From the NCBI GenBank assembly GCA_028820845.1, contig JAPPII010000123.1, positions 1-62,377 of the forward strand: DNA of 62,377 bases. Reading direction: 5' to 3'. Source of the DNA: Candidatus Poribacteria bacterium (GTDB lineage: Bacteria > Poribacteria > WGA-4E > WGA-3G). Numbering within the stretch: the first letter of the stretch is position 1; each line of letters begins with the position of its first letter. Made by a program: the position numbers and the translations under genes. The notes under the pieces are model-generated. The model made no database searches. It had not been told where the DNA came from and was given only the letters and a program-made list of their open reading frames with translations. Positions 38,656 through 46,270 of the stretch are shown one piece after another.

Positions 38656-40209
38656 CTATCCTTCAGATCGGATCTGAATGAGTTTGTTAACAGCATGGAT
38701 ATATGCGCGTGCACTCGCTTCAATGATGTCTGTGCTGGCACCGTGTCCGGTAATGATATTTCCGTTGTCCTGCACCTTCAACGAGACTTCACCGATAGCG
38801 TCTTCACCTTCAGTTACAGATCGTATCTGGTAGTCGATGAGGTTCAGTTGAATGTCAACAACTTTACTGATGGCTTTGAACGCTGCATCAACGGGTCCAT
38901 CTCCGGTTGATGCCATTTCAATAACTTTACCTTCCGTCCGAATTCCGACCGTTGTTGTCGGTGAGATTTTTGTTCCGCTGACCACCTGAATATAGTCGAG
39001 TTCAAAGACAGAGGGGATTGCGCGAATCTCATCGCTCATAATCGCTTCAAGGTCGGCATCCTGTATTGACTTTTTCTTATCAGCGACGCTGAGAAATCTT
39101 TCATAAACCTTTTCCAATTCTTCGGGGTTCACCTCGTAACCGAGTTCGCTGAGGCGGTGCCGAAGTGCGTTGCGTCCAGAACGGGGACTCAGAATGAGTT
39201 GGCTCTCTTTCCATCCAATCTCTTTCGGATCGATGATTTCAAAAGTTACGCGCGATTTGATGATCCCGTCTTGGTGAATGCCAGAACTGTGTGCGAAGGC
39301 ATTCGCGCCAACGATTGCCTTGTTCGGCTGCACCATAATACCCATCGTTCGGCTGACTCGCCGACTAATCGGGACGATTTCCTTAGCATTAATGTCCGTG
39401 TAATACGCTTTGAAGTAATCACGCCGTGTGCGGATTGCCATGACGACCTCTTCGAGTGAGGTATTCCCTGCACGCTCGCCAAGTCCGTTGATTGTGCATT
39501 CCACCTGCCGTGCGCCCTGCTCAATTGCGATGAGACTGTTTGCGACGGCTAATCCAAGATCGTTGTGGCAGTGGACACTAATAATAGCATCATTAACGTT
39601 TGGGACGTTTTCCATGATGCCTTTAATTAATTCGCCGAACTCAGTCGGTACCGTCCATCCGACGGTTTCCGGTATGTTGACGACGGTTGCGCCAGCAGCG
39701 ATAGTGGCTTCAACGACTTCATAAAGGAACGCTAATTCCGTGCGTCCAGCGTCCATCGGTGAAAACTCGACGTTTGCATCAGCGTGGTTTTCACAGAGGC
39801 TTTTTGCGTAGGCGACGGCATCGGTTGCCATGCGAAGTGTATCTTCGGGAGTTGTACGTGTGATCCGCCCCATGTGGATCGGAGAGGTTCCGACAAACGT
39901 GTGGATACGGGCGCGCGGTGCATCTTCAATCGCCTGCCACGCAGCAGTGATGTCCTTCTCCACAACACGCGAAAGCGCGCAGATTTCGGGACCTTCCACT
40001 TCGTTTGCGATCTGTTTGACGGCATCGAAATCACCGGGTGACGAAATTGGGAATCCGGCTTCAATGACATCAACATTTAATCTGGCAAGATGTTTAGCAA
40101 TCTCGAGTTTTTCCTGGATACCGAGTGCGGCTCCGGGGGTCTGTTCTGCATCGCGGAGTGTTGTATCAAAGATGTAGACTTTTTGCTGATTGGCTTCAAA
40201 ATCGTCCAC
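38656..40209 (-). CDS. leuA: 2-isopropylmalate synthase
   Basis: LeuA condenses acetyl-CoA with 2-oxoisovalerate, the committed step of leucine synthesis. GTG 40209 is chosen because GGAGG stands eight bases upstream and the protein then begins just before the conserved [18 protein letters not shown], giving the normal length of 517; an upstream ATG would overlap aroF. Other motifs: [47 protein letters not shown], and a C-terminal allosteric LeuA domain. It is the second gene of an aroF-leuA operon. Confidence 0.92.
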
Positions 40210-40276
40210 GGGTGTGTTCCTCCAAATATTTTTAACGATTAAATCTGGTCGCTTCTCCATTTCATTACGAAAAGGT

Positions 40277-41296
40277 TTAAATTTCACGTCCGACAGCAAC
40301 AGCAATAGGCTTGAGTTCCTGCATTAGTGCCTCGAATTGGTCTGGGAACAGCGACTGCGCCCCGTCCCCTGTCATCGAGTGATCTGGATCGTGATGTACC
40401 TCAAGTAAGAGTCCATCTGCCCCGGCAGCTACAGATGCTTTCGTCATATCACAGACCAAACTCCTGATGCCTGTGCCGTGGCTTGGATCGACAACAATAG
40501 GTAAGTGGCTCAATTCGTGAACGACTGGAACCGCATTCAGGTCGAGTGTGTTGCGGGTGTGCGTTTCAAATGTTCGGATCCCGCGTTCGCATAGAATGAC
40601 CTCCTTATTACCTTCTGAGAGGATATACTCAGCGGCGAGTAGCCATTCCTCGATTGTTGAGGACATGCCGCGCTTGAGGATAACGGGTTTCCGTGCGCGT
40701 CCAACTTCACGCAACAGATAGAAATTTGTCATATTCCGTGTGCCGAGTTGGAACATATCCGTATATTCCCCGACGAGTTCGACTTCGTGTGGGGTCATCA
40801 CTTCGGTGACGATGCCGAGTCCTGTTTCATCTTTCGCCTCTTGTAGCATTTTGAGTGCTTCTTCGCCGTAACCTTGGAAGCTATAGGGACCGGTTCTCGG
40901 CTTAAAAGCACCGCCTCTGATGAAACTCGCCCCAGCCTTTTGAACCAGTTGGGCGATGGTTACGATCTGCTCTGTGCTCTCGACAGCACAGGGACCCGCA
41001 ATAACAGGTATCTCCCTTCCGCCGATCTTTGTGCCGTTGACGACAATAACAGTGGGCTCATCGCCTCGGAATTCACGGGATGCCAACTTGAATGGTGCTG
41101 TAATTGCCATTGTTCGCTCCACACCGGACATTGACTCTATGGGAATATCACCAAGCAACGTTTTATCTCCAATTACACCGATAACTGTATGGCGTTCGCC
41201 GGTTGAGATTTGTGCCTTCAACCCGACGCTCTCAATCCGTTTAACAACAGCATCTATATCTGCCTGTGTTGCATCGGTTTTGGTCACGATTACCAT
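40277..41296 (-). CDS. aroF: 3-deoxy-7-phosphoheptulonate (DAHP) synthase, Thermotoga type
   Basis: DAHP synthase joins PEP and erythrose 4-phosphate, the first step of aromatic amino acid synthesis. Residues 1-70 are the ferredoxin-like regulatory domain of type I-beta enzymes (Tyr/Phe feedback in T. maritima); the barrel has IAGPCAVES, GGAFKPRTGPYSFQGYG, QLGTRNMTNF, KRGMSSTIEEW and VVDPSHGTG. The ATG at 41296 is preferred; TTG 41305 is closer to GGAGGTAG. Directly upstream lie an intrinsic terminator and a Tyr/Leu-rich leader peptide, so it is very probably attenuation-controlled. Confidence 0.93.
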   Translation of the reverse strand: MVIVTKTDATQADIDAVVKRIESVGLKAQISTGERHTVIGVIGDKTLLGDIPIESMSGVERTMAITAPFKLASREFRGDEPTVIVVNGTKIGGREIPVIAGPCAVESTEQIVTIAQLVQKAGASFIRGGAFKPRTGPYSFQGYGEEALKMLQEAKDETGLGIVTEVMTPHEVELVGEYTDMFQLGTRNMTNFYLLREVGRARKPVILKRGMSSTIEEWLLAAEYILSEGNKEVILCERGIRTFETHTRNTLDLNAVPVVHELSHLPIVVDPSHGTGIRSLVCDMTKASVAAGADGLLLEVHHDPDHSMTGDGAQSLFPDQFEALMQELKPIAVAVGREI

Positions 41297-41385
41297 GCTT
41301 TTCAACTACCTCCGCCTTCTTAATAGTAAGTTTTCAGTTTGCAAGCTGCCCTAAAAAGGAACTCTGTTGGAAATCAAGTTTAGTT

Positions 41386-41426
41386 AAAAAAAATACCCAA
41401 CATTGAATTTTTCTTCAACGCTGGGT
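41386..41426 (-). terminator. intrinsic terminator in the aroF-leuA leader (attenuator)
   Basis: On the minus strand ACCCAGCGTTGAA (41426-41414), loop GAAAAA and TTCAATGTTGGGT (41407-41395) give a 13-pair stem with two G-U pairs, then A and eight T residues (41393-41386). It stands between the leader peptide and the aroF start, 90 bases ahead of aroF, so it ends transcripts before the structural genes. Confidence 0.88.
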
Positions 41427-41477
41427 GGTGATAACGAAATCGGTTAAAAATAGCATCGCTTACGGCGCTTCACCACC
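41424..41477 (-). promoter_or_regulatory. candidate antiterminator pairing of the aroF-leuA leader
   Basis: GGTGGTGA (41477-41470), which is the end of the leader reading frame (Arg-Trp-stop), is exactly complementary to TCACCACC (41431-41424). The latter takes the first three bases of the terminator's 5' arm. A ribosome at the stop codon would hide GGTGGTGA; one stalled earlier on Tyr/Leu codons would leave it free. The overlap is short, so other pairings may contribute. Confidence 0.5.
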
Positions 41478-41541
41478 TGGCGTAGCTGTACAGATAAAGG
41501 TACAGGTATAGATACAATCCGAGGCCGGCTTTTAAGAGCAC
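41470..41541 (-). CDS. Leu/Tyr-rich leader peptide of the aroF-leuA operon
   Basis: The frame ends in GLYLYLYLYLYSYARW and TGA. With GTG 41541 as start (AAGG seven bases upstream) it is 23 residues, a normal leader length, with eight Leu, six Tyr and one Trp. The same frame is open back to ATG 41673 (AGGA upstream), which would give 67 residues. Synonymous codons vary (CTA, CTG, CTT; TAT, TAC), so the pattern is held at the peptide level rather than as a pure DNA repeat. Tyr and Trp report on the aromatic pathway (aroF), Leu on leuA. The combination with the terminator 44 bases downstream is the classical attenuator layout. Confidence 0.75.
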   Translation of the reverse strand: MLLKAGLGLYLYLYLYLYSYARW

Positions 41542-41917
41542 GTTTTCGCCTTCAAATTGCACAAAAGGCGTAAAGATAGCCCAAGCGTAAAGAGAACCGT
41601 TCTGTAAAGAAATTGGCGCGATCTGTAGCCGAGGGATTTGTACTGTAGTGGTATTGCTTTGAAGCGTCCGCATTGTCAAGTTCCTATTAAACCCAAATAC
41701 GAAAGGATTCTGCCCCTATGTCCACAAGTAAATTGCACTATTAAAGTGAATATTATGTAACCTTAAGACGTTATTTACGAAAAAGCGTTTATATTTTTTC
41801 TAAGGCATAGCACTTTAATAAAAGACACACGCTGTCATCTCCATTGAAATAACAGATTTTATTATATAATAACACACTTTTTAACACAAGTCAAATTTCT
41901 TTTTACGCAAAAGAGCG

Positions 41918-45115: not shown

Positions 45116-46270
45116 ATGATAAAGACACATAAAATAGCATTACGCCCGAATCGCGAGCAGATTGCGTGGTTTTATCAACAATGCGGTTATGCGAAGTTTG
45201 CCTATAATTCTGCGTTGTCTGATTTTAAGGCGGAACTTGGTAAAGCTAACGTCATATCCATGTATGACCTAAACAAACGCTTTAATCAGGAGAAGAAAGC
45301 GTTTGCTTGGACGCAGGCACAAGACCAACGTGCTGCGATGTACGCTGTCCACAATCTCGGCAAGGCAATAGAGAATTGGAAAGCGAAACGTGCGGCGTTT
45401 CCAAGATTCAAGAAACGTGGTTGCAAGCATGCCTACACAACGGATGAGCAAGCTGTGCGTGTGGAAGGCAAACGTATCAAGTTGCCGAAAATCGGTTGGA
45501 TACGCACTTTTGAGAAGTTGCGGTTTGTGGGTAAGATCGTATCTGTGACGCTCTCAAGAACAGCACATCGTTGGTTTGCGTCTGTATCTGTAGAAGTGCC
45601 ACTGCCTATAGATCGGTGTGGGGTTTCGTCCGAGTTTGTAGATTATTTTGCGTCAACTGTTGATATTGGAACACCTTATCAGATAGAACGTTCTATCTAC
45701 CCCAGTATCGGTATAGACGTAGGTATCAGCACACTCGCAACGCTTGACGATGGCACGAAATACGAGAACCCGAAAGCACTCAAGGGGTATGAGCGAAAAC
45801 TCAAACGTGAGCAACGCAAGTTAAGCCGCAAGGTATTTTTAAGCGAGAACTGGTATAAGCAGAAACGGATTGTGGAGCGTATCCACTACCGCATCGCTTG
45901 TATCCGAAAAGACGCCCACGATAAAGCAACGACGGCACTTGTAAAGTGTGCGGGTCGTATTGGGATAGAAACACTTTTGGTTGCCAACTTACTTAAGAAC
46001 AGAAAACTTGCCAAGGCGTTATCAGACGCAGCACTTGGTGGTTTTCTTGAGAAGTTAAGAACCAAAGCCGAATCGTTTGGAATACCCGTTGTCCAAGCAG
46101 ATAGGTTCTTTGCGAGTTCTAAGACCTGTAGCACTTGTGGGGATAAGAAAGACGACTTAACGCTTTCAGATAGAGAATATCAGTGTAACCGTTGCGGAAC
46201 GTCCATAGACAGGGACCTAAACGCAGCAATCAATTTAAAGAACGTCGCGGTGGGGCACACCGAGACATAA
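45116..46270 (+). CDS. tnpB: TnpB RNA-guided nuclease of an IS200/IS605-type element (copy 2)
   Basis: A 384-residue TnpB with the same N-terminus (QQCGYAKFAYN), RuvC motifs GIDVGIS, GIETLLV and SIDRDLNAAIN, and zinc-ribbon cysteines CSTCGDKK ... CNRCGTS. All catalytic residues are kept. A segment of about 25 residues (PIDRCGVSSEFVDYFASTVD...) before the first RuvC motif is absent from copy 1. An in-frame TGA blocks any earlier start, so translation begins at this ATG without a nearby ribosome site, as in copy 1. Confidence 0.93.
   Translation: MIKTHKIALRPNREQIAWFYQQCGYAKFAYNSALSDFKAELGKANVISMYDLNKRFNQEKKAFAWTQAQDQRAAMYAVHNLGKAIENWKAKRAAFPRFKKRGCKHAYTTDEQAVRVEGKRIKLPKIGWIRTFEKLRFVGKIVSVTLSRTAHRWFASVSVEVPLPIDRCGVSSEFVDYFASTVDIGTPYQIERSIYPSIGIDVGISTLATLDDGTKYENPKALKGYERKLKREQRKLSRKVFLSENWYKQKRIVERIHYRIACIRKDAHDKATTALVKCAGRIGIETLLVANLLKNRKLAKALSDAALGGFLEKLRTKAESFGIPVVQADRFFASSKTCSTCGDKKDDLTLSDREYQCNRCGTSIDRDLNAAINLKNVAVGHTET

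Follow-up and report, generated by a model that had tools for sequence, protein, structure and literature searches.

The aroF-leuA locus and its leader

The window analysed here is a stretch of 62,377 nucleotides (contig JAPPII010000123.1, positions 1 to 62,377) from the Poribacteria, an uncultured, sponge-associated phylum, and the elements described below lie on its minus strand. Two biosynthetic genes are found in succession: aroF (40277..41305), whose product is a DAHP synthase carrying a ferredoxin-like regulatory domain (PF00793, PF18152, NF006421 and TIGR01361), and leuA (38656..40305), encoding a 2-isopropylmalate synthase (TIGR00973, above cut-off, with the LeuA dimer domain PF08502). 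The named relatives of this aroF at 84-100% identity are Poribacteria in every case. Ahead of aroF is an open reading frame (ORF) of 67 codons (41473..41673; MRTLQ...GLYLYLYLYLYSYARW) that closes with the stop codon TGA (41472-41470), has homologues in 34 loci of the same genus and matched no Pfam or NCBIfam family in profile searches. It contains a (Leu-Tyr)x5 tract (41488..41517) as its putative regulatory codons. An intrinsic terminator follows (41386..41426), composed of a 13-pair hairpin (41426-41395; stem ACCCAGCGTTGAA / TTCAATGTTGGGT, loop of 6) and eight T residues (41393-41386). The original prediction of a Leu-Tyr frame ending at 41470, followed by a hairpin with eight T residues, aroF and leuA, thus describes what is present. 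The leader, however, runs beyond the interval it gave, 41386-41541.

By inspection of the sequence, the leader starts at ATG 41673, with AGGAA upstream of this codon. The locus accordingly has the short ORF, with its own start codon and ribosome-binding site, that is typical of leader-peptide attenuators, and likewise an intrinsic terminator between the leader ORF and the first gene, aroF. Farther upstream, a candidate promoter of the sigma-70 type (TTGACT-17-TATTAT, 41866..41894) agrees with the consensus at 10/12 positions and has TG before the -10 element, a weak call given that the scan returned three matches with 1.7 expected by chance. Between this candidate and the leader ORF, a conserved AAACGYTTTTT...AATAACGTCTTA occupies 41758-41795 and the same position in the genus loci. 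In many same-genus loci (L003, L005 and L021 among them) repeats resembling CAGCTTGCAAACCGAAAACTTGCTATTGAAAAG, single or in tandem, lie in the stretch from terminator to aroF; in L006 and L010 a similar sequence sits in frame within the leader ORF, where it adds Leu codons. Elsewhere in the window, on the plus strand, the translation of an ORF at 45116-46270 resembles, by eye, a TnpB-like protein of the transposon-associated kind, with a zinc finger at its C-terminus.

Conservation among Poribacteria

The aroF loci of the phylum were gathered and the DNA upstream of each was inspected. Leader and terminator stand in the same order before aroF in 34/34 same-genus loci with intact upstream DNA, a count that omits L032, a copy from the same species, and L023, which is truncated. 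The arrangement recurs in 20/21 loci of the family's other genera, the exception being L064, which a contig end cuts off, and in seven order-level loci, with the leader of L081/L030 judged by eye. The conservation in related loci by which the original prediction was to be judged is therefore found in genus, family and order, and at all three levels the leaders bear Tyr, Leu or Phe codons. The two genes neighbour each other in the family, and all of these leader-bearing loci have leuA downstream of aroF, in one case about 2.3 kb away. The class-level relatives L066-L068 have aroF-leuA without a leader, and no such leader was found upstream of the aroF paralogues L069-L074 (51-55% identity, no leuA nearby). 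Within the genus the leader measures 56-72 codons and its N-terminus is partly conserved; the terminator is present in all family loci, with 98.1% of alignment cells paired. Of 83 genomes, 27 contain the switch motif GGTGGTG...TCACCACCCRGCGT in its exact form, one copy each and always beside aroF, although this strict pattern misses the spacing of the window itself and of several relatives.

Selection on the Leu-Tyr tract

The tract is maintained as peptide. Across its eight aligned columns in the 34 genus sequences pN/pS is 0.14 (column bootstrap on one third of the sequences: 0-0.29), compared with 0.54-0.71 for the upstream segments of the leader, and the N-terminal part shows little amino-acid constraint by this measure. 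Taken separately, the four Tyr columns give a ratio of 0 and the Leu columns one of 0.39, these being uncorrected pairwise counts on related sequences in which the Tyr synonymous signal derives largely from one column. Tyr is invariant in 34/34 sequences, whereas the Leu columns are mostly Leu and in several genomes hold Val, Met or Phe. Leu is encoded by CTG, TTG, TTA, CTT or CTA and Tyr by TAT or TAC, with changes overwhelmingly synonymous. This variety and the conservation of the tract as peptide dispose of the earlier reservation that it could be a degenerate six-base repeat. Tuning of the tract by rare codons was considered and rejected: Leu codons are chiefly CTG and TTG, never CTC, and Tyr codons are near background.

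In composition, Tyr is enriched 11.1x and Leu 4.1x over background in the genus tracts, and 9.0x and 2.8x at order level, while the remaining genera of the family show a rise in all of Leu, Phe, Tyr and Trp. The enrichment of codons for the products of the operon that marks an attenuator is thus seen for Tyr and Leu at each level. Local residue frequencies give (LY)x4 a chance of about 6e-11 at any one start position. The tracts differ in length by steps of two codons, so that units have been gained or lost while each was held to Tyr with a mostly Leu partner.

Antiterminator, spacing and folding

The predicted antiterminator consists of two helices. In the inner helix, supported by duplex prediction and the family alignment, GGTGGTGA (41470..41477), which overlaps the stop codon and the two codons before it (TGG and part of AGG), pairs with TCACCACC (41424..41431). 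In the outer helix, also from duplex prediction and with 96.9% of its cells paired, 41480..41485 pairs as 41485-41480 with GCGTTG (41416..41421, read 41421-41416) within the terminator 5' arm. The complementarity of GGTGGTGA and TCACCACC at the base of the terminator had been recognised from the outset and is real, but it is not the whole antiterminator. The accompanying caveat, that antiterminator and terminator overlap by only three bases, no longer applies, as the outer helix reaches well into the 5' arm and the full antiterminator takes 6-12 nt of it. In the family alignment 97.8% of antiterminator cells form standard pairs, as opposed to 30-76% with the partner strand displaced by 1-3 columns. 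One outer-helix pair is A-U in 26 sequences and G-C in 18, a change that affects a single pair and may reflect one event. The terminator keeps an invariant G.U pair (columns 142-161) where the outer helix has C-G, and displacement of the outer helix would therefore gain little energy. In order-level relatives GATGGTGGGC with GCCCATCATC takes the same antiterminator role with a different sequence.

The position of the tract relative to this element is closely fixed. Counting back from the first G of the antiterminator strand, 50/54 family loci have a Tyr codon that begins at exactly 13 nt, and in 40/54 a Leu codon directly precedes this position, at -16. The same pair is seen again farther upstream, where 51/54 loci have Tyr at -25 and 49/54 have Leu at -28. 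In order-level leaders Tyr is found at -12 in 4/6. About 13 nt also separate the A site from the leading edge of the ribosome, and so a ribosome waiting on that Tyr codon would just leave the antiterminator strand free.

Folding bears on the switch in two ways. In the transcript that precedes the terminator 3' arm, the antiterminator is part of the minimum-energy fold of 58/58 leaders and sequesters 6-12 nt of the arm. Once the terminator is complete, it is the structure preferred by equilibrium folding whether the ribosome is stalled or not, with a mean probability of about 0.92-1.0 in the stalled state, because a 3-nt slip of the GGTGGT repeat lets the inner helix coexist with the terminator. 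Of the two-state fold put forward as a check on the original prediction, the early formation of the antiterminator was borne out and a difference between the states at equilibrium was not, so that equilibrium folding was discarded as proof of a switch. As the terminator wins at equilibrium in every state, any working switch must be kinetic, and we infer such a step here. Direct-path barriers from antiterminator to terminator, a crude estimate, are modest, averaging 7.1 kcal/mol in the family and reaching 4.9 kcal/mol in the window, which speaks against a switch. A consensus fold also pairs an N-terminal UACCAUC-type segment with GGUGGUG, at a duplex energy no better than that of other leader segments (mean rank 0.52), and a search of the leader by duplex energies found no convincing 1:2 protector stem.

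Leaders of aroF in other phyla

A comparison is offered by the relatives that this DAHP synthase has outside the Poribacteria. In L134, L136 and L144 (Clostridia), L150 (Kiritimatiellaeota) and L155 (Roizmanbacteria), a leader and a candidate terminator likewise stand directly before aroF, but Phe takes the place of Leu beside Tyr. The Phe/Tyr tracts read MKLNNFFNAYFYFYFSTFSQKG (L134 and L136), MKKTFNAQNFAYFYFADYYFNSL (L144), MNTRGFTVFAGWYFAYYYAGFSAVLL (L150) and MIRLAQSAFYFYFFTPLSSGS (L155), and no Leu is found within any of these five aromatic tracts. The gene after aroF is not leuA, which was not found at these loci, but a prephenate dehydrogenase (tyrA) in L134, L136, L144 and L150 and a prephenate dehydratase (pheA) in L155. 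The codon content of aroF leaders thus appears to follow the next gene of the operon, Phe/Tyr for tyrA or pheA and Leu/Tyr for leuA, in an informal contrast drawn from five non-poribacterial leaders, two of them near-identical. If so, the amino acids sensed would be predictable from sequence, and aroF leaders would form a natural series for how leader peptides are re-tuned upon operon rearrangement. A separate arrangement was seen in L126 (2001-4046), where two DAHP synthase genes are in tandem with MQNNSISQELSSFYFFGYYF upstream; the contig is labelled Woesearchaeota, a label that may reflect binning.

Proposed mechanism and the amino acids probably sensed

The computed features of the locus are an ORF, coding-level selection, a terminator, an alternative pairing, conservation, spacing and the link to aroF-leuA. 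Conservation, coding selection, the fixed Tyr spacing and the alternative fold make it highly likely that a ribosome-mediated leader-peptide transcription attenuator precedes this operon. RNA polymerase would transcribe the leader ORF ending in Leu-Tyr codons. With charged tRNA-Tyr (and presumably tRNA-Leu) plentiful, the translating ribosome would reach the stop codon and mask GGTGGTGA, the terminator would fold, and transcription would stop there without entering aroF-leuA. A ribosome stalled on a tract codon would instead relieve this stop: its front edge would halt just before GGTGGTGA, the last tract Tyr being 13 nt upstream, and GGTGGTGA with the adjoining CAACG-type strand would pair with TCACCACC and GCGTTG ahead of the terminator 3' arm, allowing the polymerase to read through. 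The stalled ribosome very probably switches the operon on upon tyrosine shortage, and probably upon leucine shortage too, with Tyr sensing the firmer of the two.

The attenuator itself, then, finds strong support, while the further claim of the original prediction, that one ribosome reports on both pathways, is plausible by comparison. Judged from the sequences, true dual sensing of Tyr and Leu is the likely case. The principal competitor is the same attenuator responding to Tyr (or aromatic supply) only, with the Leu codons serving as hydrophobic spacers or left over from duplication of the unit. The invariance of the Tyr columns where Leu columns accept Val, Met or Phe would fit such a device, as would the two-codon steps in tract length and the position of Tyr as the residue most enriched over background (11.1x, as against 4.1x for Leu). 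A precedent exists in Corynebacterium glutamicum, where an aroR leader (Phe-Tyr-Phe) before aroF is reported to respond to Phe and not to Tyr (PMC11802643); a codon within a tract need therefore not be sensed. Leu is nevertheless the commonest or equal commonest tract residue at genus, family and order level, and it precedes the critical Tyr in 40/54 family loci. Moreover, leuA belongs to the controlled operon, and tracts lacking Leu (Phe/Tyr) occur where leuA is absent. Leu sensing is favoured because tract Leu is confined to operons that include leuA, and a response confined to tyrosine is unlikely, though it merits serious consideration.

Arrest of the ribosome by the leader peptide itself, through nascent-chain sensing of some signal and not codon-wise tRNA supply, would suit the great length of the leader (56-72 codons within the genus), the partial conservation of its N-terminus and the strong amino-acid-level constraint on its tract. 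However, the residues after the tract vary save where the antiterminator RNA fixes them, both repeat number and residues of the tract differ among genera (LYLYLYLY versus LYPFLY), and leader composition tracks operon content, which together leave this explanation improbable. A constitutive terminator accompanied by a chance or non-regulatory small ORF, or by a functionless degenerate hexamer repeat, would agree with the preference for the terminator in all equilibrium folds and with the weakly constrained N-terminal part of the leader; against the cross-family conservation, the tract pN/pS of 0.14, the fixed 13-nt spacing and the conserved antiterminator, it is very improbable. A riboswitch before aroF-leuA, whether a T-box or another that binds tRNA or a metabolite, can be set aside almost entirely: T-boxes do occur in Poribacteria, one of them before ilvB, but the reading frame of the leader is conserved and searches of Rfam, including T-box RF00230 and the amino-acid leader families, gave no leader match at gathering thresholds or at E up to 5.

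Returning to the attenuator, the comparison across phyla leads to a broader proposal, to which we give a slight preference: that the aroF-operon leader is a two-input sensor which would co-regulate the entry enzymes of both pathways upon Tyr or Leu shortage, and that across phyla its codons have been rewritten according to the next gene.

Relation to known attenuators

Multivalent attenuators are familiar from the thr (Thr/Ile) and ilvGMEDA (Ile/Leu/Val) operons of Escherichia coli. There, too, a single leader peptide reports several amino acids, but these belong to linked pathways, while the poribacterial leader would join the aromatic and leucine pathways, which are otherwise separate. The order of ORF, antiterminator and intrinsic terminator is shared with the attenuators of E. 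coli trp and leu and of Shewanella leuA (PMC2659441, for Shewanella). Unlike these, the poribacterial leader has a mixed Leu-Tyr tract, no convincing 1:2 protector stem was found in it, and it bears no sequence relation to them (no Rfam match). In C. glutamicum, leuA is reported to have its own separate leader with four Leu codons (PMC4046766 and PMC11802643, citing Neshat et al. 2014). The aroR and leuA leaders described there resemble the poribacterial one in carrying pathway codons within a short translated ORF that precedes a DAHP synthase gene or leuA, and in acting, or being predicted to act, by ribosome-mediated attenuation. They differ in that C. glutamicum divides between two leaders what the unrelated Poribacteria place under a single, Leu/Tyr-alternating leader before a joint aroF-leuA operon.

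The statement in the original prediction that no mixed Leu-Tyr leader is known to be described agrees with the open-licence literature, in which no description was found of such a leader or of any attenuator in Poribacteria, nor any paper that treats Poribacteria with an attenuator or T-box, or that combines leader peptides, tyrosine codons and attenuation. The mechanism is thus of a known type, apparently not previously described in this phylum. If correct, it would be the first of the leader-peptide kind to be described in Poribacteria, to judge from the open-licence literature searched, and a single leader reporting on two otherwise separate pathways.

Other control elements in the genome and phylum

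No further attenuator of the same kind was found in the genome before trpE and pheA, where it was looked for. T-boxes are widespread, with matches in 77/83 genomes of the phylum at 1-3 per genome; the genome-wide search found none on the contig of the window. In the same genome a T-box leader is situated upstream of ilvB (L177, 3245-3528), and the same is seen in L175 and L176. Leader-peptide control, as predicted for aroF-leuA, and T-box control would thus stand side by side within one genome.
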